Part shown: positions 2,310 to 58,000 of the stretch, piece after piece
Numbering within the stretch: position 1 is the first letter of the stretch
How the letters are laid out: each line of letters starts with the position of its first letter
Source: Henricia sp. BOLD:AAB3569
Lineage: Eukaryota; Echinodermata; Asteroidea; Spinulosida; Echinasteridae
Direction: 5' to 3'
DNA length: 64,000 nt
Assembly (NCBI GenBank): GCA_037783545.1
Contig: JBBELK010000164.1
Coordinates: forward strand, 1,860,001 to 1,924,000
Translations under genes and position numbers: made by a program
The notes under the pieces: generated by a model
The model's database searches: none
What the model saw: only the letters and a program-made list of their open reading frames with translations
Told to the model about the DNA's origin: nothing

Positions 2310-3240
2310 AAATTTAGGAGCACATTTTGTCCGGTTAAAAACCAAAAGATCGAGGCCGCTGAGAGATGTAACATAATAACGAGAACGCTCGCCTCTTGTG
2401 GCAAGGTTGACTGCACCAGTCTAAACAAGAGCCGCTGAGGCAGTTGGCGCCACTTTGCTCGAAGTGCCCCCATGAACCCCTGCACTTCGATAGGGCAGTT
2501 TGAGAGACGTGTGGCTCCAGAGGTCAGTTCATTCCACGCAGATTTAATCGGGTTAAAAACCAAACAAAATGGAGAACCCAAGTTGACTCGAGTTAATGAC
2601 CTGTTAAAACTTACAACCCAATTTGAGCAATTTGTGAAAATATTTCCGTTACCCGATTAAACGTAAAACCTGCACATTGTTAATCCGTATACTCAGCACA
2701 CACTAACAGCGCGGCGGTAGGGGTACAAAAGGGACCCGGAAAGGCTAAAAATCCGCAAATCGCACAAGCCCTCATAAAAATTTACAATTATACAACTTGG
2801 GGGATGAAGTTCTTAAGCACTTCAACATGGGACAACTCGCCACTTAAGTCCCGAGCGGCTGCAGCGTGTTCATCCCGCGCGGCTGGGCCGGCTAACAGGG
2901 CCAAATCCCCCGCCTCGGGGGAAGGAAATTCCCGCTGGTGGTACGCGGTGCGTCTACATGCGTGCGACTAGTGTGTCAGCGACCGGCATGTGTGTGTTAA
3001 AGGCCCGGCTTTGCACCCCTGTGTCCGCTAATCACCGGTCCACGTTTCGGTGTTGCGGGGCAGATTTGCCGTTGACACATAAGCTAAATTGTCCTAATGA
3101 ATTTAAATTCACTCGTACTGTCTTTCTTTATACGATTATTGTCGGCGAAACTTGTGTGGTAAACTTTTCTAGCGGTGGCAGCGAAAATTCTATTCAAAGC
3201 AGTGAAACTTTTTCGCCTTTAAAGACAGATGAAATGATCT
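2310..3240. other. No gene recognised; CpG-rich patch at 2830-2960
   Basis: Contains two direct near-copies of GGTTAAAAACCAAA (near 2334 and 2549), about 215 bases apart. I could not extend them into a terminal repeat. A GC/CpG-rich patch precedes 2960. Small open frames show no domains. Confidence 0.4.
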
Positions 3241-3930
3241 GTTACAAATGACGTTATCTCCATGTGTGATTGAGGATGATGATAAAAACCAACCTGTGTA
3301 TAAGTCAGCTCAGTACCTCATCTATGTTAGATAGATTACAGGATTGGAAAACTGTTACAAACGGCGTTATCTCCATGTGTGATTGAGGATGTGTATGATA
3401 AAAACCAACCTGTGTATAAGTCAGCTCAGTACCTCATCTATGTTAGATAGATTACAGGATTGGAAAACTGTTATAAATGGCGTTATCTCCATGTGTGATT
3501 GAGGATGTGTATGATAAAAACCAACCTGTGTATAAGTCAGCTCAGTACTTCATCTATGTTAGATGGATTACAGGATTGGTAAACTGTTACAAATGGCGTT
3601 ATCTCCATGTGTGATTGAGGATGTGTATGATAAAAACCAACCTGTGTATAAGTCAGCCCAGTACGTCATCTATGTTAGATGGATTACAGGATTGGTAAAC
3701 TGTTACAAACAGCGTTATCTCCATGTGTGATTGAGGATGTGTATGATAAAAACCAACCTGTGTATAAGTCAGCTCAGTACCTCAGCTACATTAGATAGAT
3801 TACAGGATTGGTAAACTGTTACAAACAGCGTTATCTCCATGTCTGATTGAGGATGTGTATGATAAAAACTAACCTGTGTATAAGTCAGCTCAGTACTTCA
3901 TCTACGTTCCGAGAAAACAATGTAAAACTG
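3241..3930 (+). repeat. Tandem array of six 116-bp units (foldback family F)
   Basis: Units begin at 3241, 3354, 3470, 3586, 3702 and 3818. Each runs from GTTACAAA through CGTTATCTCCATGTGTGATT and AACCAACCTGTGTATAAG to TTACAGGATTGG. Identity between copies is high. The unit equals the outermost part of the terminal inverted repeat of the foldback element at 39141-40393, so this is a terminal-repeat segment amplified in tandem. Confidence 0.9.
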
Positions 3931-4240
3931 TATCCATGATTTCAAGAAATCGTGCGAAGCCACTGTCCTATTTAGACTGGTTCCCGGTTATACTGCACGG
4001 AAAATGGAGTCATACAAAGTTTCGTTCACGTGAGGGCGCACTTATGCGTAAAATTAATCTTTAAATTATCGTTTGGTCACGAAAATATCATCTGGAGCGG
4101 AATCATTGCAATGAAAAGTCTGTGTTGGACCCTGCACTTCTATCTACTTCTCAAGTGAGGTTTTCTGGTCAAATGTTTGATTAAAATGTTGGGACATTTG
4201 AAATTCTGTATAGGCCTGCGGACTTTAATAACACGAGATT
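3890..4240 (+). mobile_element. Inner part of a solo arm of foldback element F
   Basis: Follows the tandem array in the order seen in the full element: GAGAAAACAATG, the CTGTCCTATTTAG / TGGTTCCC block, GAGGGCGCAC, AATCATTGCA, then ACTTCTATCT and GGTCAAATG. The opposite arm is absent nearby. The 62-codon frame at 3876-4064 is repeat sequence. Confidence 0.75.
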
Positions 4241-9332: not shown

Positions 9333-11565
9333 GTACATGCAGTAAGCATCACACGGTTTTAGTAATTTTTCGTTTTCTTAAAAAAAAATCAATAAAAATT
9401 AACATAAATGAAAACAGTTAGAAGGTGCATTTCGATTCACTTTACACACGCCGCAGAGTCGCCACCACTGATCTACATACACTGGAGTGGACACAAGCGA
9501 CTTTCTGTGTACAGCAACTGTCAGCCACAATACCTTGTCTTGACTGATATACTTTCACCAGACTACGTGTGCAAGCGATCATCAGATTTCATACTTTGGA
9601 AAATATCTTAGCTGCACATATGAATTCCTATACATTTTTCACACGAGCCTATCCTACAACAAATTTTATTAGTAAACTGATTTTTTAAACAAATATTTAT
9701 TTTAATTCTGGTGTGTGAAACTTCTTTTTATTTTCAGCGCCGAAACCGCACTACATTCACCCCGCAACAACTCAGCGAGCTGGAGACGCTTTTCTCCAAG
9801 ACGCATTACCCCGATGTGTTCGTCCGCGAGGATTTGGCCTTGCGTATTAATCTCACAGAGGCAAGAGTACAGGTAAAATAAATAAATAAAAATCTACTTC
9901 GTTTTTTGTTTCATCAATTATGTTTAACTATGCGATTTGTGATTTCATAGATTTCATATACGGCCGTCCTTTTTACCGTTTCAGAAAGAACACATTCTAA
10001 GCTTAAAATTGCTATTATACATGTATTGATGCTTGTTTCAAGTTCATACGATATTCAGAAGTGGAGTTAATGTTCACTGAATCTGGCCATGTCTCCATAT
10101 ATATACAAATGCGAGAAATGTGGATTTAAAGTCGGAGGTCCCAAAATTAAGCCTATATTTAAAATGTTAGGATATGAAAATCCATAGCAACCACCATGTT
10201 GCAAATAAGCTACACCCATCAAATTTCACATAAACAACGTTTAGACCTCGTTAAAGCTAAAACGAGTGGACTTCTTTCAGTTTTGGAGCGATTTTATCAG
10301 CTAGAAAGGCGAAAGTTCATAATAGCAGTTTTATTCGATTTGTTTCAGGTTTGGTTCCAGAATCGACGCGCCAAATGGCGTAAGATGGCCCGCCAGCGAC
10401 TAGGCATCGACCCCTGGCGGTCCCGCCAGATCACCGCCAGCCCGTACACCGGTGGCAGCGGGGCTTCGGCGGCAGCAGCCGCCAACATGGGGTTTGCCAC
10501 AGGGAATCCATGGCTAGCCGCAGCGGCGGCAGCGGCAGCGGCCGGGGCAGCGGTACGGCCGCCCGCTCTGAGTCAAGCTTCGGCGGGATTCTTGTACAAC
10601 GAGTCAATGGCACGGGCAGCGCACAACTCGCTCAGAGAAAGGTATGGGTTTCCCCGGAACAGTCGATATTTTAATTATCAACAAATCAAAAAAAATGTCT
10701 ACGAGTTTGGATGGAGAATGTGGATGGAGTGAAAAACTTAGCTCTACGTGCAGACGTCCTACCAATTGAGCTATGAAGCCAACTGGTGGTCTCGAATCAC
10801 GGTAGTGCAGTTGTTCGTCGCTGATTGGGATTGGCTATCACGTGAGCTTAGCAAGCCCTACAGAGTGAAAGACCCTCCAATGCGATAACCACCCCTCCCA
10901 GAGCTAGATCATTTAAAACACGGCCCAAACAAAGGTCTTGGAATTAAGTCCCGGGTTCGATTCCTGGGCATGTATGTGGATTGGGGTCGCAGTCCTTATA
11001 CTTTACTGCGTGGGTTTCCTCCAAGAGATTTCTCTGGGGTTTTCCTCCCACTTCTAAAACTGCAACTCCTTCTTCGTCCTCCTCCCAAGTCGATAATAGA
11101 TTATAGTTAAAGCTAATACCGTATAGTTGGTGGCATAAAGGGCCTTAGTTACGGAAGATGCCATAAAATTAACCACAACAACACAAACTTACGATGCAAT
11201 AAATCTAACTAACTGTATCATAATGAAGTAAATTTTCAAACTTTCACTCACCAATTTGCAGCATGCTGGCGGTTGCAGCTCTTCGCGAAGGAGCAGGCAT
11301 CTCGCATCTCCACCACCACCCAGGGCTCCCTCTACCGGCTTGTGGCTGCCACATGACGTCAGCAGTGGCCACGGCAAAGGACGCCGCCAAGGACGAGGTC
11401 GTGATGGCGGGCGCCCCAAACGGTGACCTTCCGCCAGGTACCTTCAGTTCCTGCAGTGACGACAGCGTGAGCAGCTCCAGTGTGGCGGCACTGCGACTTA
11501 AAGCCAAGGAACACGCCGATTTGGTGCACAGGGAGTCGTCTGCAAAAACTCGGGAAAATGTTTAA
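9252..11565 (+). CDS. Drgx: Paired-class homeobox transcription factor, Drgx/Prrxl1-like, four exons
   Basis: Nuclear DNA-binding transcription factor assembled from exons 9252-9332, 9738-9872, 10349-10641 and 11262-11565, about 270 residues. All introns are GT-AG, with phases 0, 0 and 2, and the frame stays open throughout. The homeodomain covers about residues 27-86: it opens [13 protein letters not shown], contains THYPDVF and INLTEARVQ, and ends [12 protein letters not shown], with Gln at position 50 (paired-like, no paired domain). The intron at homeodomain position 46/47 is typical of the class. An alanine-rich stretch lies at residues 113-140 and an OAR motif ([17 protein letters not shown]) at about 241-258. 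Drgx proteins, as I recall them, carry a short acidic/basic N-terminus ending RRKQ just before an intron and then RRNRTTFT; here RRRQ precedes an intron at the same place. In vertebrates Drgx acts in sensory neurons. Alternatives are other OAR-bearing families such as Alx, Arx or Prrx. The N-terminus may extend into an upstream exon. Confidence 0.82.
9333..9737 (+). other. Intron 1 of the Drgx-like gene
   Basis: 405-base GT-AG intron, AT-rich, with a long T-rich tract before the acceptor. I see no repeat or second gene in it. Confidence 0.8.
9738..9872 (+). CDS. Drgx: Drgx-like exon B (homeodomain helices 1 and 2)
   Basis: 135 bases, exactly 45 codons, from RRNRTTFT to EARVQ. The acceptor is TTTTCAG|CGC at 9737/9738 and the donor ACAG|GTAAAA at 9872/9873. 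It carries the N-terminal arm and helices 1-2 of the homeodomain. Both bounding introns are phase 0. Confidence 0.92.
9873..10348 (+). other. Intron 2 of the Drgx-like gene (within the homeodomain)
   Basis: 476-base GT-AG intron at homeodomain position 46/47. AT-rich, with no recognisable element. Confidence 0.8.
10349..10641 (+). CDS. Drgx: Drgx-like exon C (recognition helix, alanine-rich linker)
   Basis: Starts at TTTCAG|GTTTGG with [12 protein letters not shown], the recognition helix. It continues as a basic stretch ([13 protein letters not shown]) and two polyalanine tracts broken by Gly, Asn and Trp. It ends AGAAAG|GTATGG at 10641/10642, leaving two bases for the next codon (phase 2). 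The open frame running past 10641 to about 10730 is intron read-through, and its 5' part before 10349 is intron as well. Confidence 0.88.
10738..10786 (-). repeat. tRNA-derived SINE head fragment
   Basis: Read on the minus strand, this gives CATAGCTCAATTGGTAGGACG, the 5' half of a tRNA with the polymerase III A box. No matching T arm follows, so it is a truncated SINE or tRNA relic. It lies in intron 3 of the homeobox gene. Confidence 0.55.
10925..11180 (+). repeat. SINE-like insertion in intron 3 of the Drgx-like gene
   Basis: Contains a polymerase III B-box sequence (GGGTTCGATTCCT) near 10952. A 3' body with GGGTTTCCTCC and GGGGTTTTCCTCCCAC follows, of a kind seen in deuterostome SINEs. 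It ends before the exon D acceptor. The A-box half is not clear. Confidence 0.5.
11262..11565 (+). CDS. Drgx: Drgx-like exon D (C-terminus with OAR motif)
   Basis: The acceptor TTTGCAG|C at 11261/11262 supplies the third base of the split serine codon, and the frame then runs 100 codons to TAA at 11563-11565. It contains a His/Pro-rich stretch, CGCH, an acid- and Ser-rich segment and the OAR motif near the C-terminus, followed by about twelve residues. The exact match of the phase to exon C is strong support for the model. Confidence 0.87.
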
Positions 11566-15224: not shown

Positions 15225-15330
15225 GGTGGTTTTTGCTCAGGTTGGTTTTAATCATGCATATCTTCAATCACACAGGGGGATAAAACTAATTGTAACAGTT
15301 TACCAATCATGTATACTATCTTTAAGTCAC
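15225..15330 (-). mobile_element. Solo end of foldback element F, inverted
   Basis: CAGGTTGGTTTT, CTTCAATCACACA, GTAACAGTTTACCAATC match the reverse complement of the 116-bp unit at 3241-3930. Only the outer unit is present. Confidence 0.65.
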
Positions 15331-17261: not shown

Positions 17262-18030
17262 TTGTGTACATGGGAATATGTCTTCACATGATTGTGTACA
17301 TGGGAATATGTCTTCACATGATTGTGTACATGGGAATATGTCTTCACATGATTGTGTACATGGGAATATGTCTTCACATGATTGTGTACATGGGAATATG
17401 TCTTCACATGATTGTGTACATGGGAATATGTCTAAATGTGTAAATTATGTCTTCACATGTGTACATTATGTCTTCACATGTGTACATGTGAATATGTCTT
17501 CACATGTGTACATGGGAATATGTCTTCACATGTGTACATTATGTCTTCACATGTGTACATTATGTCTTCACATGTGTACATTATGTCTTCACATGTGTAC
17601 ATTATGTCTTCACATGTGTACATTATGTCTTCACATGTGTACATTATGTCTTCACATGTGTACATTATGTCTTCACATGTGTACATGGGAATATGTCTTC
17701 ACATGTGTACATTATGTCTTCACATGAGTACATTATGTCTTCACATGTGTACATTATGTCTTCACATGTGTACATTATGTCTTCACATGAGTACATTATG
17801 TCTTCACATGTGTACATGGGAATATGTCTTCACATGTGTACATTATGTCTTCACATGAGTACATTATGTCTTCACATGTGTACATTATGTCTTCACATGT
17901 GTACATTATGTCTTCACATGTGTACATTATGTCTTCACATGTGTACATTATGTCTTCACATGTGTACATTATGTCTTAACATGTGTACATGGGTATAGTT
18001 GTCTTCACATGTGTACATGAGAATAAGTCT
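17262..18030 (+). repeat. Minisatellite with 30-bp and 21-bp units around TGTGTACAT
   Basis: Six or so copies of a 30-bp unit (TGTGTACATGGGAATATG then TCTTCACATGAT) are followed by about 25 copies of a 21-bp unit (ACATGTGTACATTATGTCTTC). A 26-bp GGGAATATG variant is interspersed at irregular spacing. Because 30 and 21 are multiples of three, several frames on both strands stay open for 70-164 codons; these are artefacts. Confidence 0.95.
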
Positions 18031-24270: not shown

Positions 24271-24350
24271 ATAAGCTTCTGATGGGATTCGAACCAATGA
24301 CCCCTTACATTCGAAGGCACGCGCCTCTACCTTAAACCACTGAAGCAGCC
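24271..24350 (-). repeat. tRNA-like sequence or tRNA-derived SINE head
   Basis: On the minus strand: GCTTCAGTGGTTTAAGGTAGAGGC (A box), then GGTTCGAATCCC (B box), ending ATCAGAAGC. GCTTC can pair with GAAGC as an acceptor stem, but the anticodon arm is imperfect and lacks U33. I favour a tRNA-derived SINE or pseudogene over a working tRNA. Confidence 0.55.
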
Positions 24351-35769: not shown

Positions 35770-36052
35770 ATTACAAGGGCGCGTTCATGTGAACGAAACT
35801 AACTCCCTGACTATCGTAGTATTATGACTCTATTTTCCGTGTAGTATATCAAGGGAACCAGCCTAAAAACAGGACATGTGTGGCTTCCCACAATTTCTTG
35901 AAAGCATGGACACAGTTTTTCATTGTATTTTCAGAACGTAGATTAAGTGTTGAGCTGACTTATACACAGGTTGGTTTTCATCACACACATCCTCAATCAC
36001 ACATGGAGATAACACCATTACAGTTTTCCAACCGTGTAATATATCTTTAAAA
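35770..36052 (-). mobile_element. Solo arm of foldback element F, inverted
   Basis: GGGCGCGTTCATGTGAACG, GGGAACCAGCCTAAAAACAGG, AGTTTTTCATTGTATTTTCAG, GAGCTGACTTATACACAGG, ATGGAGATAACACC occur in the order of the right arm of 39141-40393. Confidence 0.75.
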
Positions 36053-36566
36053 CCACTGTATATTGTAATTCATTTCATAAAAACGAAATATATCGGCCAA
36101 CGACACGTGAATTTGAGGGCGAATCCTCCAATGTTGACTCAACGGCAAAAAACTACACACTCCATAAATATTAGTATACGCCCAGTATGCAGGCAAAACG
36201 CATTGTTTGTTTTAGCGGGACAAGCATGTAATTGGGTTGTAGAAATTACTCGTAAGCCCGAGGACTGGCGAGACACTAAATTATACTGCAAATATCGGCT
36301 TAGTGGTCAAATTCTCATTAAAGAGTCTTCATTGTTTTTGAATTTATAGCACGTCTGAAACAAAATTATTAACAAAACCACTCTTTTGATCATCTTTGTT
36401 CAAGTATGATGTATGATGAAACACTGACGCATATACCCCAAAAATGTAAGCAAAATGCCTAAAATGGATTTCAATTTCACGTATCGAACACAACATCTGA
36501 TGGTATGGTGCCTGATTATACCATTGATATGAAACAACCAAACTTGGGATGAGAGAAAAATCGTAA

Positions 36567-36652
36567 AGGCCTCATCGGGATTCGAACTCGAGACCTCTGA
36601 CTCACTGGCAACTAGGCAGATGCTCTACCAGCTGAGCTATAAGGCACAGTTG
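36567..36652 (-). repeat. tRNA-like sequence with elongated anticodon arm
   Basis: On the minus strand: TGCCTTATAGCTCAGCTGGTAGAGC (A box), GAGTTCGAATCCCG (B box) and GATGAGGC, which pairs with GCCTTA. The D arm, T arm and acceptor stem nearly fold. The anticodon arm is about eight bases too long and imperfect, so a SINE head or tRNA pseudogene is likelier than an intron-bearing tRNA gene. Its head matches the units at 52263-52520. Confidence 0.6.
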
Positions 36653-36654
36653 GT

Positions 36655-37915
36655 ATACTACCTGATGCGTTTTTAGAACATTCGTTATTTTACGAGACAG
36701 GCCACATTTTAGTTACATAATTTTGTGGATTATGATGTTCTATACTTTGGATAATATCAGAAATATTTTGTTTTACACAACAATACGAACCAAAATACAA
36801 CACAATTAACGTTTTTAAACACCGCACAGGATACCAAGTGCACAACGGCATTGCGTGACGCCGACTAAATGCCTCAGACGTCCATTTACGACATTATAAT
36901 GCACACACATCGTCTATTGAATTACATCAGCCCCGCAATTTACATATTGAATTAGAGTAAACTTAGTAAGCGATATTAATGTCCACGTCTCTAGTTTTTT
37001 TCTTTCTTTTTCATTTTTTTTCCTTCAGATGCCTGGCTGAGTGTTAGCTGGCCTGCGGTAAATTCATTTAGGAGCGTTTGGCGTAAGTGCGTATATATAG
37101 TCACTTGCCCTGATTTCGTTTACACTATACAGGCATGCGGACGTTTTCATTTTGTTTTTAATTTTCGTCTCCTTAATAAAATTGCAAGAGGAAAATTCTA
37201 GTCCAATGCACTGTTTCGCTATTTTGAGCATCTCCGAGAACAAAATTAACACACTTCTATATAAACACATTTTTTTTGTAGCCAGATTGGAAATGTGTTC
37301 AAATTTCAATGTTCAAAATGTTAAATTTTAAACACTATGAAATGTGTTAGAGGGAAATGGGTTAATTTTTTTTGTAAAGCGTACAAATGAACATCATGTG
37401 GATTTAAACACACGGCGTGTAAACAAATGCTCGTAATCATTTTTGCATTAAACATTTAAGACAAGTGTTTAAAAAATCTCATTATTTGACTAAACTTGTA
37501 AAAAAAAGGCAGTAAAACACACAAAATGTTTAAATTCAATGCGAATTTTTACCGTACTTTGTACTTTAAACGTTTCACAATTACGCCATTTTTTTTAAAA
37601 CATTGATTACGAAAATCCCCTGTTGGCTTTATCAGTAAAAATAAGTTTTATAAGGTTTAAAAACTGTTACTATGCCCTTACGGTAACTTTAATAGAAGTC
37701 CAACGACCTGTCTTTCTAATTTATCACACAGCTCTTAAACTAAGAGCAAATTTCAAGAACTCCTGTATATTTGAGATTGCGCAAACCGAAGTCAAAACAA
37801 TCTCAGAACCACCATCTCCTCGGAAAACCCAGAGAGAAAAATCAATCTTGGACCACAAACGTAAACCTCGTTTTTTATGAATCTGGCGAGAGACGTATTG
37901 AGTTTGGGGAGAGGA
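36655..37915. other. No gene recognised
   Basis: Very AT-rich DNA with poly-T tracts. The 85- and 81-codon frames at 37064-37309 and 37623-37880 have no domains. Confidence 0.4.
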
Positions 37916-38640: not shown

Positions 38641-39140
38641 ACATAATGCGTCCGGTACGGCACGCGTCTGTATGCAGCTATGATGTATTGAGATTTTAAT
38701 ATTTTATTAAATAGCTCACCAGGATTTCAAAACCTTGCAAATTATAGATGTCCTTTAAAAACTTATGTAAAATTTATGTGAATTGTTTGTGAGTGTTGAA
38801 ACTAAATAAATACAAAACAGGGTCGACGTTCTATGAAGCGCGGACTCCGGCTTCTTTCGCCACCCTTCCCCCGTGTATTTGTTCAATGCCTCGTATATTC
38901 TGATGCCCTGCCCGGCCATGGATCTTATTAATTAAGCACAATCTCTTAAATTTATCCCTATCGATGGTCCCGCGGGCCTGAAAGAACACTCATCAGTATA
39001 AGCGAGCGCAGCGCGTGGCTGTTCGATCATGGAGCGGGGGAAAAGGGAATTTGTCCGGACGCGAGGTTAGGAGATTTTTTTTGCGGGAAGCTTGAGTCAC
39101 GCGTGCAAGATGGCCGCTATGGTCACAGACTTTCAAATCA

Positions 39141-40393
39141 GATTACAGGATTAGGAAACTGTTAAAAACGGCGTTATTCCCACGTGTGATTGATGATGTG
39201 TATGATAAAAACCAACCTGTGTATAGGTCAGCTCAGCATCTCATCTACGTTCAGAGAAAACAATGAAAAACTGTGTCCATGCTTTCAAGAAACTGTGCAA
39301 AACCGCTGTCCTATTATAGGCTGGTTCCCTGGCTGTAGTGCACGGATAACAGAGTAATACCAAAGTATTCAGAGGCCTAGTTTCTGTCACATGAGGGCGC
39401 GCTTGTAAATAAATGTGTGTGCACACATATTTATATAAATTCATTTTCAATTATCGGTTTCTTATAAAAAGATGGAATCATTGCATTGGACAGTTAGAAC
39501 CACTTCTATCTTCCATTTGAATAAGGTTTTTCCCGGTCAAATGCTTGAATAAAATTTTAGGACATTGCAAATGCGGGCTTTAAAAAGCAAAGCAATTGCA
39601 GCCGACACGAAACAGTCGTCGAGGACTAGTGACGCATTTTCCACCGGTCCTAAACGCTCGAAGGGTAAAATCAGAGACTGCGGTAAATCCAATATTGCGC
39701 TAGCTTGTGGAGCTGATCTTATCTACACGGATGCCAGAAGGGGTGATACTAACCCGATGCCTAAGCAGCCCCAGGGTAGGGGTGTGAGTGCGCCGGGATG
39801 GGGAGAGATGGGAGAAAACCCGCCGCGAAATGAACGAGCGCTCTGGTTTTTATTAGAACAGGACTGTGGAAACTTATCGTATTCAAAATATGGTGGTCTA
39901 TCCGAAAGAGGTTATGTAAGCCCGTATACAGGATTACAATGTCCACAATGTTAATAATTTGACTGGTAGAACCTTACTCAAATGGAAGATAGAAGTGGTT
40001 CCAACTGTCCAATGATTACGCCCGATATAATAATTTTGTATTTATTTTGTTTATTTTTTTTGTTTAAAGAAAACGACAATTGAAGATGAATTTTCTATAA
40101 ATGTGTGCGCGCGCACATTTTGTACAAGAGCGCCCTCATGTGAACGAAGGTACGCCCTGACTATACCGTGGTATGGCTCAGTTCTTCATGCAGTATAGCT
40201 AGGGTACCAGACTAAATAGAACGGTGGCTTTGCTAAACATTTGAAAAACATGGATACATGCAGTTTTTCATTGTTTTCTCGGAACGTAGATGAGGTACTG
40301 AGCTGACTTATACACAGGTTGGTTTTTATGATACACATCTTCAATCACACATGGAGATAACGCCATTTGTAACAGTTTTCCAATCCTGTAATC
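39141..40393. mobile_element. Full-length foldback element F (about 1.25 kb)
   Basis: A giant palindrome. The left arm (about 39141-39583) begins GATTACAGGATTAGGAAACTG, and the right arm (about 39918-40393) ends CAGTTTTCCAATCCTGTAATC. Markers along the arms occur in mirrored order: the ATGTGTGATTGA block, AAAACCAACCTGTGTATA, GAGAAAACAATGAAAAACTG, the GAGGGCGC / GCGCCCTC pair, and ACTTCTATCTTCCATTTGA. Arms of about 450 bases enclose roughly 335 bases. No transposase is encoded; the 129-codon frame at 39565-39954 has no known domain. The arm's outer unit is the one amplified at 3241-3930. Confidence 0.85.
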
Positions 40394-40399
40394 TATCTT

Positions 40400-41380
40400 T
40401 AACTCAAATGGATTTTACGCGCAATGTGACTGCATGGCTTGGTTTGTCTTGAACAACTCGAAATAAACTCATCTTATTCCCTAAAACAATTCCTGGCCTG
40501 GCCTAATCGATTGATTCGCCGCCCACCCTCGATAATATTAGTATTGATAAGTTTCCGAAACCGTGTTTACTCGGGGCAACGAAAACCGGTTTTCCCTAAA
40601 CATTAGAAATGCAAATGAACGCTCATATTATTTCAGTCACGGCTAGTCCGAGTTGGGTCGGCGTACGTAAGATCGATCGCTCGGACTAATTGTGAAGTTT
40701 CCTCACGTATTCGCTAAACCACTCGCTTGCACGAAATAGTTGGCACTTCACTCGTACCAGAAGCATCATCAACTATCGCACGGGGAAACAAAGCCTCCAG
40801 GGCCCTCCACAAAAAATCACATCTTATATTTTTACAACAAATTTCCCCTAAAAAAAGCTGGGAAAAATTCAACCCACGACACTTCCTGTTCCCGAGGGGG
40901 TGTTTGGGGCGCGTGAGGCTCCGGTGGTGGCCCCTCCGGGAATGTAATAGCTCGCAGGGCAGCCACACGCTTCTTATGCAACTCATGGTCTTGTTTTTGC
41001 GCGGGAAAAAAGAATGCCTCATTTCTTAGTTTGGAAGATTTTATTTTTGCAGTTGTCGTCTGCTCTTGTTGGCCACTTGGCAACGGCCTGGCCGATCTGA
41101 GATAAAATACGCGCGGGAATGAATGTCCTGTGGGGATACACGTCACCGGCGCACTGCTGTAGTTACGTTGAAGTCAAGTGTTCTCCTCAGTGCTCCACTT
41201 AAATAAAATTACACATGGAAGGGGAAATGAAACTAATCATGGTTTGCCGTTCAACCAGCTGCATCCTAGGAGCTTCGGTTTTTCTTGAATACTTGAACAG
41301 ATCATACGAAAAAAATGGCGACAAAATTCGAGAACACAGAGCAAATTCACGCAATACAGTTCTGTTAAAGAAGACTTGGT
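40400..41380. other. No gene recognised
   Basis: Opposing frames of about 100 codons at 40714-41146 show no domain. CpG content is moderate near 40640-40950. Confidence 0.35.
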
Positions 41381-41575: not shown

Positions 41576-42154
41576 AGAAACAAAAGACACTGTGCTAAAT
41601 AAGTGCAACTCGTACATTATTGTTATACAAAGATACAAGAAATAGGCTATATGACCCACTGAAAGCAGATACAAACTTCACAAAGAATAGCAATAGAGCC
41701 TTTGCACGGCGGCCATGACAGGGGGCAGTCACATTGTCACCGTGTGCGATGCATGAGTATAGGTACTTTGTGGTTCAATTGTTACATCATTTACGTAAAA
41801 AAACCTGCCCCTGTCATGGCCGCCGGTGCAGAAGCTCTATCACAGCGATGCCTTGCAATCACAGATTTGCTTGCAATATGGGCGCCGCCATGTTGTCCGC
41901 AAACTGGGCCAAGAATGACGTTTCTGTGCACAACTCCTTCGTATATTGCTATGGCAATACACGAAAAAGTTGTACACGCAAAAATGTCATTCTTTGCCCA
42001 GTTTTCGGACAACATGGCGGCGCCCATATTGCAAGGCATTGCTGGAATTCCATTCTTTGTTAGGTTCGTATCTGCTTTTCAGTGGGTCATATGTTCTTTG
42101 TGTAACACTCATGAACGAGTTGCACCTGTGTAGCACAGTATCTTTTGTTTCTTG
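41576..42154. mobile_element. Nested foldback element G (about 579 bp) carrying a family H MITE
   Basis: The outer arms AAGAAACAAAAGACACTGTGCTA... and ...TAGCACAGTATCTTTTGTTTCTT pair over about 120 bases (marker GACCCACTGAAAGCAGATAC / GTATCTGCTTTTCAGTGGGTC). The inner hairpin 41868-42045 has near-perfect arms (ATTGCAATATGGGCGCCGCC...GGCGGCGCCCATATTGCAA). A separate palindrome of family H (41699-41829, GGCGGCCATGACAGG / CCTGTCATGGCCGCC) interrupts the left arm. The 143-codon frame across it is repeat-derived. Confidence 0.85.
41699..41829 (+). mobile_element. MITE family H inserted in element G
   Basis: GCACGGCGGCCATGACAGGGGGCAG faces CTGCCCCTGTCATGGCCGCCGGTGC. The interior GGTACTTTGTGGTTCAATTGTTACATCAT matches 12130-12160. 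Confidence 0.8.
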
Positions 42155-42159
42155 GGTGA

Positions 42160-44350
42160 CCTACTTTAAGACAGCGAAGCTTGAAAACTTAGCCCCCTTT
42201 TGGTGTCTTCAGGTGCCATGCTGTACTACAAAAAATCGGTAAATAGTAAGCGTTGTGGTACCAATGGAGCACCATATAGGCATCGATCGTCCATAGACGT
42301 ATCGTGCTCATTCATTATTTGTACAGCCGTGAGCCAGATCATCCCGGTCACTGCTCTCATGTAAATTCAAAGATATGAATTGCTTGGGGGATTAAACCAA
42401 GGCGTAAGAGATGAAGAATTTACCCTTTCGTGCGTGCAGTGGCATTTTTTTCCTTTTTACTTGAGGAGTTTAAAGCCAGTCCCAATCGGCCTAAGAAAAA
42501 CAAATAAACATGATTATGCATGGGGTTTGCGCCAATATACGAGGCCCTGTGCCCTAAGTAAGACAAACGATTGGAATTTATCGAACTGGTTTCGTTAGAT
42601 TTCTTTTGGGCAATTCTTTGATTATTTCTGTCCGGTTGGCTTTGGGCGAGATAGTTGCTGTCCCAACTGAGATCAATTTGCCTTTTTTCTTTAACAAGCC
42701 ACGGGCATGCATTAATGTTTATGCTGACGTAATTTATTTGCCCCAGAAAAGGGGACCGAGGGAGTCCTCTCTTTGAATATTTGCAAGGGATTTCTTGCCT
42801 TGTTGTGTCTGATTTAAGAGTGATTACGTGAACGTCGTGGAAGAGGTGGCGCAAAGGGGTGTACTTAAACTGCCAAAGAAGGTGGAAATTGGGGAAAAAA
42901 ATAGGAGAAAGAAGATGATTGAAGACGACAATTGCACGTATTCTTAAAAACGGAAACAGGACATAATTCTAATATTTGCTTCAAACATTGTTGTCCGATC
43001 GAAAAAGAAGAAAAATATGAAACATTTTAAGTTCTACATAGCATGTGTATTTACTTTAATTTGTTATTACAGACAATCGATACAATAATACACACAAGGG
43101 TCGCCTGGATGTTTTCAAAGAATACGACGAAAAATAATATTTAGGAGCTTTGATTTTGCTGTTAAAAAAGCAACGCGGTGCGGATGTTCCGTTCTGGATT
43201 TTTGTAACCAAACAAAACTCACTTCCAACATAATGTTTCCAACTTCCTTTGCAATCTTTCCGAACACAAAAACCACTCCACGTTCCCTCTTTTCCTCACG
43301 ATTACTTTATCGACATTTTCATTTATGTTTTGTGGAAATGGAAAATATAGAACCAAAATCTTTATTTGTTTCTTCTTTCAAGTTTCGATCCTGGCTTGCG
43401 GGCGGCAGACCCGCTGGCACCCGGTTTCCTGCGCGCACAGTACACTTAAAACTCTGTGCTATCTCCAGTAGATAGCAAAATGGACGTTATGGTAAGAAAT
43501 ACACGGACATGTAAACTAGGCGTTGCGAGTGGTGATGCGTTTTGTATCCAATGTCCTTGAAGGTTTGATGCGTGTGTTTCTGCCTCGATTGTCCGCCTAA
43601 GACAATTTAATAAGACGATGGTGCAGGGTCGATGGCGCGTTGTTGTAAGGGAGGATTCACATGAGGCTTTTCGTGCGTTAATTTCACGCGGGTCGCTTTG
43701 TGAAAAAGCGGTCTGGAAGGATTTTGGGGTCAAAATATACACTGAAAATCACAGAATAATCTTGGGAAGAAAATGGGGATTCTGTGGTTTTCAGTACGCG
43801 TACGTCATTTCACTCAAAATTCAACCCACACCGCTTTTTCTCAAAGGGACGCCTGTAAAAATTACGCGCGACAATGCTCAGTGTGAATTCACCCTAACAC
43901 CCACCGTACCTCAGGCCCCGTATCGGCTCGTCTTTGTACCCCACGGCCCTGGCATCGTATGTACGGGCTCCGGACGGAAGGAAACGCTATTTGGAGAGAT
44001 GTTTTGACAACTGGCCTCCCGATTCGATTACGCTCGATCCTGAACAGAGGATCCACCACTTAGGACTTAGCTTTCCATTCAAGAGGACAACTCTCAAGTA
44101 GGGTTGGCTAGCTTAGATTCAAGTTATAAGGGTCGACACCACACGATACGGCCACTCGGACGCCAAAAGATGTCAACATGGGACAGAAAACGGTCAACAA
44201 CTTGTATCGAGTGGTATTAAGAATAGCGAGCATCTCCCCTGCCCTCAATGCAGATGCGTGTGTGTCGAATAAGTGACATAATGACACTGGCATGCATGGG
44301 CCTCCGTACGTCCTTTGGGACTCGTTGTGTATCTAACGTTCACTAGCTCA
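42160..44350. other. Long stretch with no gene recognised
   Basis: The 144-codon minus frame (42420-42854) and the 129-codon plus frame (43618-44007) are the longest. Neither has a domain or usable splice context that I recognise. Confidence 0.35.
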
Positions 44351-44354
44351 AATG

Positions 44355-44622
44355 TACTACTAAAGTGTGACGTTTGTTGCCAGGTAACTGGGTCTAAACA
44401 ATCGCTGGTAATATGAAACATGTATTGCTAAATGGCAGGGAAACAGTTTACTGGTAGGCCTAAGTGTAGAGTACTGTAGACCCATTTAGCCAGACATAAA
44501 CTGTGTCTACACTGTACTAACACCCGTGAAACAGTTTGATTGAGAATTAGCAATGGGCGTTTCAGTTTACCAGCGAATGTTTAGACCCAGTTATCCTGGC
44601 AAATGACGCAACACTTTAGTAG
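44355..44622. mobile_element. MITE family A, complete palindromic copy
   Basis: ACTACTAAAGTGTGACG at the left faces TGACGCAACACTTTAGTAGT at the right. The arms share TTGCCAGGTAACTGGGTCTAAACAATCGCTGGTAA with its inverted partner. This copy defines the family whose single arms lie at 85-182 and 22108-22215. Confidence 0.82.
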
Positions 44623-44624
44623 TT

Positions 44625-48810: not shown

Positions 48811-49036
48811 ATCATAGAGTTAGATATATAAAACTAGAGTGTGCACTGGCTATTCAAGTCACGTGTGTGGACTGTGCCGATGTGGGCGGCGCCATGTTTG
48901 CTTATAACGCTATGAGTACAAAGTGGGCAACACCCCTTTGCACACCGTGCACCCATAGCGTTAAGCCAAAATGGCGGCGTCCATATCGGCACATCAAGTA
49001 TTGGGAGTGGATACTCTAGTTTTCTAACTCTATGGT
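48811..49036. mobile_element. Palindromic MITE with ATAGAGTTAGA ends
   Basis: ATCATAGAGTTAGATATATAAAACTAGAGT faces ACTCTAGTTTTCTAACTCTATGG. Inner arms pair GTGCCGATGTGGGCGGCGCCAT... with ...ATGGCGGCGTCCATATCGGCAC, and AACGCTATGAGT with CCCATAGCGTT. Confidence 0.75.
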
Positions 49037-52114: not shown

Positions 52115-52262
52115 TCCCAGTTTTCAAGCAATTTTATTACAATTCTATTTTATTTTATTTTTTATTTAAATCTTATTTTATTTCAATTTTACACTGCATG
52201 ACATTTGGTATGGCACCTAACACCACAAAAATGAAACAATGAGAGAAAACCTAAAGTATATC

Positions 52263-52540
52263 GAGATTTGAAGCCGAGACCACTGACATTCTGGGCAGAT
52301 GCTCTACCAGCTGAGCTACAAGGCACAATGGCACATTCCTTCGGGTTTCCCCAAGACCTCTGACACACCAGACAGATGCTCTACCAGCTGAGCTATAAGG
52401 CACAATGGTACACTCCTTCAGGTTTCCCCTAAGACCTATGACACACCAGACAGATGCTCTACCAGCTGAGCTATGAGGCACAATGGTACACTCCTTCAGG
52501 TTTCCCCCAAGACCTATGACATACCGAGCAGATGTTATTA
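52263..52540 (-). repeat. Tandem tRNA-derived array, minus strand, about 3 units of 78-80 bp
   Basis: Each minus-strand unit starts TGCCTTATAGCTCAGCTGG (A box) and runs through TAGAGCATCTGTCTGGTGTGTC to GGTCTTAGGGGAAACC, with no B box. A more diverged unit is at the 52263 end. The 108-codon minus frame here is an artefact. Confidence 0.85.
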
Positions 52541-52559: not shown

Positions 52560-53485
52560 ATTAACCAAAAATCTCAAATCTAATCAAATCTTTTCTTAAA
52601 CCTCAGTTTTCATTTCTTCCCAATAGCCGTACTTTAGGATCTTCGAATTTAAATTTTCATTTCATTTCGTTTAACCACCGTGCCTCATTATTTTTTCCCG
52701 AGTTATGCAGATGGCATATATTTTGTTTCTCGGGTCTAAAAAGCATAATCGCTGCACGGGGCACAGCGGGCAATCTGCCGCGTGGAACTTCATTAAGGCA
52801 TACTGTACTAATACGCTATGGGTATATGAGTTTGACAGATGCGTTCCATGCATTATACACAAACAACGAAATTAGACTCGTGGTGTGCTTGAATATTTAA
52901 TCACTCAACTATCGCATTCAGTCGGGTGTTACTTTATGCTTTTCACTAGCGATGTTATAAACCTCCAATGTGATATTTTAAGCTTATTCCAAACATTCGT
53001 CTAAGTTATAAACCTCCACAATGGTATTCTCAGTGTAAATCTTCATTACGGTATCAAAAGTATTTTTGTCGATTCCGAATATTCTTCTTTTTTGTTTCAT
53101 ATTCGATTATCCATAAGTATTTTGAGAACATAGTCCAAAATATATTGGGTTCAATGTTGAAGTCAAATTAGGCATGTGAACTGGCCCAATTTCGCACAAA
53201 CTTCAGTCGAGACGAATACCGATATCTGTCGAAGAATCATTAATCGATTCCGACAAATGTCAAACATCAAAGTCCATGAGCAGAATAAATAATCTTCGAT
53301 CACTCGACTCACGTAATAGTTTATCCGCAAATACCGAGTATCGAAATGATTAAAGGCAGAGTCATGCCCCTCGATTACGTCACTGTGATAAATTCCCTTT
53401 ATATATAATCTTTTCCGGATACGCAAAGACTATAGTTCACTATATTAATAACTATAAGAGAATGATCAGGGGAATATCAACATAA
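52560..53485. other. No gene recognised
   Basis: AT-rich spacer between two tRNA-derived arrays. GTTATAAACCTCCA occurs twice near 52955 and 53008. Confidence 0.45.
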
Positions 53486-53487
53486 GA

Positions 53488-55048
53488 CTGGAAAGCTCAG
53501 TTGGTATGAGCGCTGGTACGGCAAAACAGAGGTTTCACTATTCAGGGGAATGCCATCATAGGGCTGGATAGCTCAGTTGGTAGAGCGCTGGTACGGCAAA
53601 CCAGAGGTTTCACTATTCAGGGGAATGCCAACATGGTCTGGATAGCTCAGTTGGTAGAGCGCTGGTACGGCAAACCAGAGGTTTCACTATTCAGGGGAAT
53701 GCCAACATGGTCTGGATAGCTCAGTTGGTAGAGCGCTGGTACGGCAAACCAGAGGTTTCACTATTCAGGGGAATGCCAACATGGTCTGGATAGCTCAGTT
53801 GGTATATATAGAGTGCTGGTACGGCAAACCAGAGGTTTCACTATTCAGGGGAATGCCATCATAGGGCTGGATAGCTCAGTTGGTAGAGCGCTGGTACGGC
53901 AAACCAGAGGTCTCACTATTCAGGGGAATGCCATCATAGGGCTGGATAGCTCAGTTGGTAGAGCGCTGGTACGGCAAACCAGAGGTCTCACTATTCAGGG
54001 GAATGCCAACATAGGGCTGGATAGCTCAGTTGGTAGAGCGCTGGTACGGCAAACCAGAGGTCTCACTATTCAGGGGAATGCCATCATAGGGCTGGATAGC
54101 TCAGTTGGTAGAGCGCTGGTACGGCAAACCAGAGGTTTCACTATTCAGGGAATGCCAACACAGAGCTGGATAGCTTAGTTGGTAGAGCGATGGTACGGCA
54201 AACCAGAGGTCTCACTATTCAGGGGAATGCCAACATGGTCTGGATAGCTCAGTTGGTATGAGCGCTGGTACGGCAAACCAGAGGTTTCACTATTCAGAGG
54301 AATGCCAACATAGGGCTGGATAGCTCACAGTTGGTAGAGCGCTGGTACGGCAAACCAGAGGTTTCACTATTCAGGGGAATGCCAACATAGGGCTGGATAG
54401 CTCAGTTGGTAGAGCGCTGGTACGGCAAACCAGAGGTTTCACTATTCAGGGGAATGCCAACATGGTCTGGATAGCTCAGTTGGTATATATAGAGTGCTGG
54501 TACGGCAAACCAGAGGTTTCACTATTCAGGGGAATGCCATCATAGGGCTGGATAGCTCAGTTGGTAGAGCGCTGGTACGGCAAACCAGAGGTCTCACTAT
54601 TCAGGGGAATGCCAACATAGGGCTGGATAGCTCAGTTGGTAGAGCGCTGGTACGGCAAACCAGAGGTCTCACTATTCAGGGGAATGCCAACATAGGGCTG
54701 GATAGCTCAGTTGGTAGAGCGCTGGTACGGCAAACCAGAGGTCTCACTATTCAGGGGAATGCCAACATAGGGCTGGATAGCTCAGTTGGTAGAGTGCTGG
54801 TACGACAAACCAGAGGTCTCACTATTCAGGGGAATGCCAACATAGGGCTGGATAGCTCAGTTGGTAGAGCGCTGGTATACGGCAAACCAGAGGTCTTACT
54901 ATTCAGGGGAATGCCAACATAGAGTTTGATAGCTCAATTGGTAGAGTGCTGGTACGACAAACCGGAGGTCTCACTATTCAGGGGATGCCAACATAGGGCT
55001 GGATAGCTCAGTTGGTAGAGCGCTGGTACAGCAAACCAGAGGTCTCGT
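53488..55048 (+). repeat. Tandem tRNA-derived satellite, about 21 units of 73-75 bp
   Basis: Unit: GGCTGGATAGCTCAGTTGG, TAGAGCGCTGGTACGGC, AAACCAGAGGTCTCACTATT, CAGGGGAATGCCAACATA. The A box, D arm and an anticodon stem CTGGT/ACCAG with loop ACGGCAA are kept; the T arm and B box are absent. Variants: ATATATAGAG insertion at 53805 and 54488, CAACATGGT versus CATCATAGGG ends, one AGCTTAG and one AGCTCACAG. Since 75 is 25 codons, repetitive open frames (LDSSVGRALVRQTRG) arise by chance. Confidence 0.95.
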
Positions 55049-55049
55049 T

Positions 55050-58000
55050 CGTTATTTTAGCAAAATGTGACATGAAAATTACAAAATCTCTCTTTTCATC
55101 ACAAATTTTAATTCAATTCAATGGCTACGTGATTGCAGTTTCACAAGTTACACGTATCAACTGGGGTTATAGGAGCGATATTTACACAGGTATAGCAAAG
55201 ATCAAGAAAAATACAGCCCTTTGGAGCAATTTAAACAGTGCTTGTCATAAAATATTTCTTTGGTTTCAAAAACGTCTGGGATCGAGAAATATGAATTCCA
55301 TAATCAATGTGCACCTCATAACAACAAAAGGTCTGGACTGAAATTCGATAGGACAGAGAGAATGACTGGCGGACCCCACGAGAGAATTATATTTAATCTT
55401 GGATGACGTTGCCAGGAGCCGAATTGGAAGACATTAAAAAGCCCGAGCGAGGGAGACAAAAGAACGTACCACGGGGAGAAGAGGCGAGCGGGGAAGTGCG
55501 CGGTCCCAGGCCGACCAAACGTCGCTTTTCACCCGGCCTTGATTTGCTAGATTGTCCACTAACAATCCAGCGCCAAATTATGCTCCGTTTCAATTTCAAA
55601 CCGCCTGCATTTCTTTATGTATATAGCTTGACAGGCCTCGCCTGTCTGCTCCATTTTTTCCCTCGAATGTTTTCGGCAAATTATGGGGAAATTTGATACG
55701 ACGGGATGTAGTGTTCAGTCGTAAAAGCATCGGGGCAAAGATACGAAGGGCATGTGTAACAGATACTGTCATCCATACAGAAATAGAAAAGTACGAATTC
55801 ATTAAGGTCCCAGTGTATGGGTGCACTATAGTGTGATATCGCTACGACCTAAACAATGGACATCGAATGCCTCATACCTCGCTCCTCAAACTCACGTGAC
55901 CTGGGGCGCATGAGTGTGTCAAATTTTCACAGAAAAAAGAGGTTCTTTATTATACATGTAGTTCAAAGTACGGACCTCAAAATGTACGCTTATTTTAAGT
56001 ATGCAGTTACATCAGAAATAGGTTTTTGGTTCTATAGTCGTTAAAACGGGCCACAGTGAACCAAACCATTGGCATAATTACAATTAAGAGCACAATTTCA
56101 TTGGGTTAACTGAGTGGATTTTGTTCCTTGGGTATGCATATGTGTGCACAAAACACATGGGGGAAAAGAAGAAGAGGAAAAAAACTAGAAGAAAAAAACT
56201 AGAAGTATTTCCCAGCAGGGATGGCATGCACGTCGTCATTATATCATGTTATAGACCTCACATGGCTACAGTCTGTGTTAATTTAACACTATGCGGGTTA
56301 TTATTCAAGGGTGAGTGAGTTCTGATCGGCGGTATGGGAGGCCATATGGTCAGTTAATTTAGCCGACGCAGTAATGCCACGCCTATAGCACTTTAATTAT
56401 ACATGCACAAACGGAAATTCTTTTTAAATAATGACTGGAGCGAAAGACGGCGCAATCTGTTTACGTTATTTCCGATTTTGCCAGTCGTTGAACCCCGTAA
56501 AATGGCCATATGGTGTGCAGGATTTAACAAAACACTAACTTTTGCGCTAACGAAGTTTATACAAAGAAAGAAACCGAACGAATTGTTACGAAATTAATTA
56601 CCAAAATTAATATGAAACAGTGTAATTTAAGACGAATAATTGCAACTAATGAATTCAGACACGTTCAATATTTTGTCAGGCTCTTTTTTAGCTTCTTTTT
56701 AACATAAATTGTCGAATATGTTAGTGTTTTGAATGTAATCTTTTCAACATCAACAGACTGTAATCGGAAATTTTTCTAAAAATACTATAGACCTTGTCCA
56801 AAGTAGTTAAAATATAGCTCCTAATGAAAAATCAACAAAACTAAGTGCATTACGTATGAGCGAGACACGTTTTCCATGTTTCTCGCAAACAAAGGGGGTG
56901 ATGGTCCCTGTTCGGTATGAAATGAAATTTCAGTTGAACTTTGAATGGGGTCATGAGGGGTGTAGGGGCCGGGTGTTTTTTTGGCAATAAAGTGGGTACG
57001 ATCATCACCGCGACAGGGGCAGATGGGCGGGCGAGCACCCGGGGGAGAACGTCGTGGGGCTACGGCGGTGCACCATGCAGGCCGGCACGCGTTTTGTCCT
57101 CTGGCACTGCTATAGAGATGTGCTTTGTGGTGTGCGGGTCCCACGATTCAGTATTGCTGCGAGCCTCGTTAATAATCTTTGGGATTTTGCAGATTAACTT
57201 ATTACAACAGGAGAATTGTATTATCAGGAATGAATACAATGAAGAATAAAGAATAGTAAAACTATTTCCTTGTTATAAGCAGAATGTTGTATTATTTTTA
57301 CGAATGAGATTTTTTTATATACGAAACACAAATGATTCCACAGCCCTGGGAAACAAATATATTCATGAAACAGTCGTATGAAATGTTCTTTAAAATCGGT
57401 TACCCGAAATTCGGTTGTATATCTTAGCAACATCTACGATTCCAAAATTATCGGCCTTGGTTTCTGGTTAATGTACAAACTGGGAGTGTAATTGTAACAT
57501 TAAGAACAAATGAAACGGTCAACACGGGGCACCGTAATTATCTACTTATGCCACGAAACAAGCAACATTAAAATGATATTCAACACCGCGCGAGCACCGA
57601 TCGAGGAAAACCCCTCAGTTTCCTTTGCCGATTAATCTTGTTATTCCCCGGCCTGATCGGGAACGACTAGGAACAAATTCTGCTCACCGAAACAAACTCT
57701 CGTCCCTAGCTCATTTGTCACGTGCCCGTGTTTACAATCTGCCGTTTTGGCGGGCTGAACTTTGCTCGGAACCCACATTATAACGTGCGTGCGTTAACTC
57801 GCAGACGATCACTCTGTATACCTTTTTTCCGCCTTCGCCACTTTTCTCCCATTTCGTCCTTAGCAACGGCTCGTGTTTGCTTAACGCTGGCAAAGACATG
57901 GGTAACGATATTACAATGTCAAGTCTTCGCTGTTATGCAGTTTTGGCCAGATACTGACGCTGTTTTGGTCAAATCCGGCTGCGAAATTTATTCAGAGCGC

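Follow-up and report, generated by a model that had tools for sequence, protein, structure and literature searches.

The window, a stretch of DNA of 64,000 nucleotides, contains a tandem array whose units resemble part of a tRNA, raising the question of what these units are, from which kind of element they arose and whether they are likely to serve a regulatory purpose. Tandem Repeats Finder delimited this array, referred to here as the major array, with a period of 75 bp, 20.9 copies, 93% matches and 2% indels (Table 1), and cutting it at the D-arm motif yielded 21 heads, in agreement with the initial annotation, which had described about 21 tandem tRNA-derived units. The limits given there, 53488 to 55048, were right to within 2 nt at the end, while the start lay 22 nt inside the true edge at 53466. 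The 20 complete units measured 74 bp (seven units), 75 bp (seven), 76 bp (two), 77 bp (two) or 81 bp (two), and their consensus reads GGCTGGATAGCTCAGTTGGTAGAGCGCTGGTACGGCAAACCAGAGGTCTC followed by ACTATTCAGGGGAATGCCAACATA. Each unit harbors the 5' half of a tRNA, namely, the 5' strand of the acceptor, the D arm with the A box and the anticodon arm, the last of which forms a 5-bp stem and a 7-nt loop in the consensus. This anatomy bears out the proposal that a 5' tRNA half recurs every 75 bp with the T arm and B box exchanged for a non-tRNA segment. An 18-nt motif of the head, TAGCTCAGTTGGTAGAGC, allowing up to three mismatches, matched 23 times in the window compared to 0.02 matches expected from shuffles; 18 of these lie in the major array, three in a smaller array nearby (the minor array) and two elsewhere.

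Table 1. Positions of the major array, the minor array, their edges and the single-copy relative within the window
Feature	Position	Strand	Description	Evidence
Major array	53466..55046	+	75-bp units, each a 5' tRNA half (~47-50 nt) and a linker (~24-28 nt)	Tandem Repeats Finder, unit split, unit alignment
5' edge of major array	53466..53485	+	TCAGGGGAATATCAACATA, right part of the linker, directly before head 1	17/19 bases match the linker
Last (21st) major head	54997..55054	+	GGTCTC, then GTTCG (55047-55051) in place of the linker	
First TTTT after major array	55055..55058	+	Pol III terminator-like	
Candidate target-site duplication, major array	53457..53465, partner 55357-55365	+	AGAGAATGA, abuts the 5' edge of the array	
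Minor array	52296..52534	-	Period 78, 3.1 copies of another tRNA-derived head	Tandem Repeats Finder
Last minor unit	52180..52327	-	With T-arm sequence GCTTCAAATC, running into a SINE-like body	Local alignment with the 36567 element
A-rich stretch	52127..52180	-	Past the body, taken to be the minor element's tail	By eye
Candidate target-site duplication, minor element	52604..52612, partner 52118-52126	-	TGAAAACTG, partner just past the A-rich stretch	
Single-copy relative	36468..36648	-	Not tandem; complete tRNA-like head and body	Rfam tRNA 38.4 bits, alignment, BLAST

Since 75 bp correspond to 25 codons, the array could in principle be a coding minisatellite, and stop-to-stop frames are indeed found at 53732-54178 (148 codons) and 54413-54922 (169 codons). 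However, the unit length is a multiple of 3 in only 9 of the 20 complete units, and the 169-residue frame showed no Pfam family above the cut-off (one frame of two searched). On the basis of these unit lengths and of the Pfam result for the 169-residue frame, we rejected a coding origin, the likelihood of which appears negligible.

We examined the array for complete tRNAs. ARAGORN called none in the major array, and an Rfam scan of the whole window returned none there at the gathering score. When 3 kb were scanned with Rfam, 16 of the 18 rows fell in the major array, and a single one of these 16 (53710-53792) reached the gathering score, with 32.0 versus 29 bits, its 3' acceptor strand being taken from the next unit. 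The covariance check upheld the description of the units as half-tRNAs. Among the 10 Rfam alignments shown, the T arm was skipped almost entirely in six and the acceptor of the next unit was borrowed in three, while one was that of the last unit. Neither ARAGORN nor Rfam showed the major units to form a whole cloverleaf that includes a T arm and a B box, and on this basis we rejected their identity as full tRNAs.

The initial annotation had further suggested that the array could act as a Pol III or TFIIIC-related element or as a boundary. For its binding to DNA, TFIIIC depends chiefly on the B box. While all eight defined positions of the A-box consensus are present in 19 of the 21 major units, only units 1 and 12 failing, no B box above chance was found on the plus strand of any of the 21 units, where the best match covered 5 to 6 of the 10 consensus positions; unit shuffles gave a mean of 5.5, with 46% of them reaching 6. 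Neither was a B box found on the minus strand of the units, the best match there being 6/10 positions, with 7 in unit 20. For comparison, two single-copy tRNA-like elements of the window, at 36567 and 24274, scored 9/10 and 10/10, respectively. On these scores, the major array was rejected as a member of the class of TFIIIC sites or ETC-like boundaries. Lacking a B box, its units should recruit TFIIIC poorly, and the array is probably silent, without Pol III transcription starting from its own units.

Variation among the units likewise bears on the idea that the repeated A boxes form a functional Pol III/TFIIIC element or a chromatin boundary. The mean difference between units is 5.5 alignment columns, and the tRNA half is no better conserved than the linker: counting substitutions but not indels in 20 units, 12 of 47 positions are substituted in the former and 5 of 28 in the latter (Fisher p 0.57). 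Moreover, insertions interrupt the D or the anticodon arm in 6 of the 21 units (units 1, 5, 11, 12, 14 and 19). Stem pairing is high, with 98.4% of the stem cells paired (14 distinct rows of the 21 units), and the absence of TTTT inside the array, where the first such run comes only after the last head, would also suit a transcribed element. Nevertheless, of the nine stem pairs of the major units, four are invariant, three vary on one side only and two depart only by mispairs, so that none of the nine shows a compensatory change on both sides. With so little variation, common descent explains the high pairing, which is mostly inherited. The RNA fold of the units was not unusual either: two cuts of the major unit gave z values of -1.25 and 0.25, and the minor unit gave 0.85. 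The suggestion of a Pol III element or boundary was thus not sustained, given the missing B box, the lack of excess conservation in the tRNA half, the insertions in the arms and the absence of compensatory pairs, and we regard such a function as very improbable despite the wealth of A boxes. As judged from its sequence, the major array most likely arose as an inert side product when DNA was copied and is not a regulatory device, and presumably it has no selected function. More generally, arrays rich in A boxes need not be regulatory.

Traces of the copying are visible inside the array. Units 5 and 14 are identical, including a 6-nt insertion that both carry, which points to segmental copying within the major array. 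A higher-order period of nine units had a nominal p of 0.027 and was not significant after correction over 12 lags (p 0.21).

We next turn to the origin of the units, for which the minor array is the most informative neighbor. Overlooked in the initial annotation, along with its SINE-like body, it lies 0.9 kb from the major array, on the opposite strand, and its last unit, together with about 100 bp of body, aligns with the single-copy relative over 181 homologous columns. The head-plus-body alignment scored 135, compared to a maximum of 125 in 2,000 shuffles of the body, whereas the likeness of the two bodies without the head reached only p 0.012. The single-copy relative, the head of which lies at 36567, has a full A box (8/8) beside its B box of 9/10. 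A clear A-rich tail was not found on it, and its sole candidate target-site duplication is an 8-mer that does not abut the element. The 9-bp duplication proposed for the minor element has a chance expectation of about 0.03, its upstream copy being 69 bp away from the edge of the array. These 69 bp are not alike to the sequence upstream of the single-copy element (p 0.96), nor are the upstream flanks of the minor and major arrays alike (p 0.98). The best B-box match of the last minor unit scores 7/10, a value reached by 9% of shuffles, and that of the last major unit scores 5/10, which is chance level. As the scores of both terminal units are modest, the proposed retention of a T arm rests on sequence continuity and, in the minor array, also on homology to the 36567 element. 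Taken together, the terminal unit with its T arm, the body common to the single-copy element, the A-rich stretch and the candidate duplication point to a SINE whose heads were duplicated in tandem as the best reading of the minor array. A further tRNA-like element on the minus strand (24274-24346) combines the B box of 10/10 mentioned above with a poor A box (6/8), and it scores 25.4 bits against the Rfam tRNA model, below the gathering score.

The linkers could alternatively be what remains of T arms, in which case tandem pseudogenes of whole tRNA length, and not half-tRNAs with a foreign linker attached, would make up the array. The period of 75 to 78 bp is indeed near tRNA length, and reading the minor linkers as T arms that lost 3 nt of the loop gave p 0.0105 to 0.036 in anchored tests of the three linkers. 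In anchored tests, degenerate T arm and captured 5' flank are both acceptable readings of the minor linker (p 0.0055 to 0.04), while the unanchored test gave p 0.135 for the 5' flank. The major linker, however, does not resemble the T arm that the element at 36567 carries (p 0.60), and six of the 10 Rfam alignments described above pass over the T arm almost entirely. In addition, the last units have T-arm-like sequence that the internal ones lack or carry in altered form, although in the major array it amounts only to GTTCG. We consider an array of whole tRNAs with decayed T arms to be unlikely. The linkers of the major and minor arrays show no likeness to each other (p 0.26).

Half-tRNAs joined to a linker being the preferred description, the edges of the major array indicate how such units may have formed. 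At the 5' edge, the array opens with the right part of a linker, and a further 8-nt linker match upstream was not significant (p 0.086). The 9-bp direct repeat AGAGAATGA has a chance expectation of about 0.008, but it was noted post hoc and is weak. At the 3' edge, the last head gives way to GTTCG, possibly a remnant of a T arm; the pattern G(NN)TTCG, with NN optional, has a frequency of 0.0014 of positions. This switch from linker to GTTCG is what would be expected if the last unit ran on into the T arm of the founder. Beyond GTTCG, the 3' flank is unrelated sequence with TTTT at 55055, in which neither a SINE body nor an A-rich tail could be recognised. Compared to the flanks of the other elements, this 3' flank showed no significant likeness to that of the single-copy element (p 0.26) or of the minor array (p 0.09), while the comparison with the 24274 flank gave p 0.03, one of five comparisons. 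By eye, the 12-nt word TTCGTTATTTTA was seen at 36681-36692, where it lies shortly before the single tRNA-headed element and in inverse orientation to it, and again at 55048-55059, on the 3' border of the major array; this may be due to chance.

The head of the major units is related to the tRNA-like head of the minor and single-copy elements, since none of 2,000 shuffles aligned as well. Most simply, the major array would be the same kind of thing as the minor array, with the difference that no parent was found behind it. Because the minor array still has its body attached, it shows the likely origin of such arrays, and because no body stands behind the major array, its SINE founder is inferred. 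On the basis of this single locus, we think it probable that a tRNA head, most likely one belonging to a SINE, gave rise to the major array, a small satellite, the founder being tandemly duplicated without its B box and the array then enlarged. The duplicated portion would have run from the leader or 5' flank of the founder across the A box and the anticodon arm and ended where the T arm begins, so that the linker would correspond to this leader or flank. One breakpoint would have fallen at the border between the variable loop and the T arm, leaving the B box outside the repeating unit, and growth to about 21 units may have proceeded by unequal crossing-over or by replication slippage. The pair of arrays would then clearly illustrate the birth of a satellite, the minor array with its SINE-like parent attached and its larger neighbor with most of the parent lost.

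Other repeats of the window include a 116-bp tandem array of 5.8 copies at 3239-3908 and 3793-4020, the unit of which is part of a dispersed repeat and the last copy of which continues into a longer element. Relatives of this unit are found at 35771-36050, 39140-39570, 39934-40402 and 15238-15329, and 39140-39570 forms a long inverted repeat with 39934-40394. The 116-bp array is perhaps a third case in the window in which part of a dispersed repeat was tandemly amplified. A large minisatellite at 17262-17990 comprises 30-bp units (17262-17532, 9.0 copies) and 21-bp units (17436-17990, 25.5 copies), and self-complementary stretches resembling inverted-repeat mobile elements lie at 41870-42035, 43644-43899, 44356-44623 and 48873-48993. 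A probable paired-like homeobox gene occupies 10178-10732 and 11227-11565 on the plus strand; the end of a putative homeodomain near 10.2 kb scored 15.8 bits, below the Pfam cut-off of 22.9, while the OAR motif at 11.2 to 11.6 kb was above the cut-off and indicates animal DNA.

Tandem tRNA heads were also searched for in other collections. Two head patterns matched no stretch in IMG/VR and a third matched none in GTDB contigs, while a pair of heads separated by a gap of 50 to 64 nt was found in at least 120 stretches of IMG/VR. Among the 123 such pairs that the 120 listed loci contain, both heads fell inside complete ARAGORN tRNA calls in 121, one head did so in 2 and neither in 0. The IMG/VR pairs among the matches listed are thus tRNA clusters and not half-tRNA arrays. 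At the two loci with one head outside any ARAGORN call, L092 (period 69 nt) and L109, these heads could be truncated tRNAs.

The closest published counterparts are the SINE-derived satellites of squamates (sSats). In the passages of PMC10702118 on which this comparison draws, sSats are tandemly repeated portions of a tRNA-headed SINE, derived from any part of it, with units of ~70 to 290 nt, shorter than the SINE, and few to hundreds of copies. Most of them end in a longer terminal monomer that reaches the end of the SINE, and they form locus-specific subvariants (PMC10702118). One of them, sSat3Gja2, has a unit of ~150 nt composed of the 5' part of the SINE and ~30 nt of unknown origin (PMC10702118). 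Where PMC12692304 discusses sources of satellites, it names SINEs among them and cites the squamate work. By analogy with these descriptions, the arrays of the window appear to fit the sSat kind. Their units of 75 and 78 bp lie within the same size range and are shorter than a SINE; the major array, with 20.9 copies, attains the copy number of a satellite, while the minor array, with 3.1, remains under the mark of four monomers. As to the parent SINE, the minor array has head and body in common with the 36468-36648 element and an A-rich stretch behind it, whereas none was found for the major array; similarly, a longer terminal monomer is present in the minor array and reduced to the GTTCG remnant in the major one. 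In contrast to the main unit of the snake sSat, which measures 67 nt and includes box B (PMC10702118), the unit described here has an A box without a B box. The likeness drawn here is one of kind, with no claim of descent from Squam1-3.

If the pattern of the two arrays held genome-wide, breaks during tandem duplication might fall preferentially right before the B box, and tRNA-derived elements would then seed satellites devoid of it through a specific mechanism. This idea stems from the finding of two arrays on opposite strands within 3 kb that have different heads and whose tRNA likeness in both cases ends or weakens where the T arm begins, the last unit of each preserving T-arm-like sequence best. 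Such a bias might arise if replication forks stalled at TFIIIC bound to the B box and switched template upstream of it, or if selection acted against arrays of complete Pol III promoters. The box B of the main snake unit in PMC10702118 argues against a general bias, and so does the degenerate T arm that may persist in the minor units, and we consider the bias a decidedly long shot.

The passages of PMC10702118 considered here also describe amphibian repeats with tRNA-related sequence that are likewise satellite-like, namely, Xenopus OAX, Cynops PolIII/TAN, Rana/polIII and Hydromantes Hy/polIII, of which Hy/polIII resembles the units of the window in that box B is absent. The amphibian units are longer, at ~200, 250 and 360 nt, and are described there as having no confirmed SINE parent, with OAX judged too long to count as a proper satellite (PMC10702118). 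Dimeric and multimeric SINEs, as well as SINEs with internal duplications, resemble the minor array in that parts are repeated within one element (PMC10702118), but the repeated heads described here have no good B box, and no body could be recognised behind the major array. In the same passages, the authors leave open the question of whether sSats occur outside squamates (PMC10702118), and if the host of the window is not a squamate, its two arrays bear on this question.
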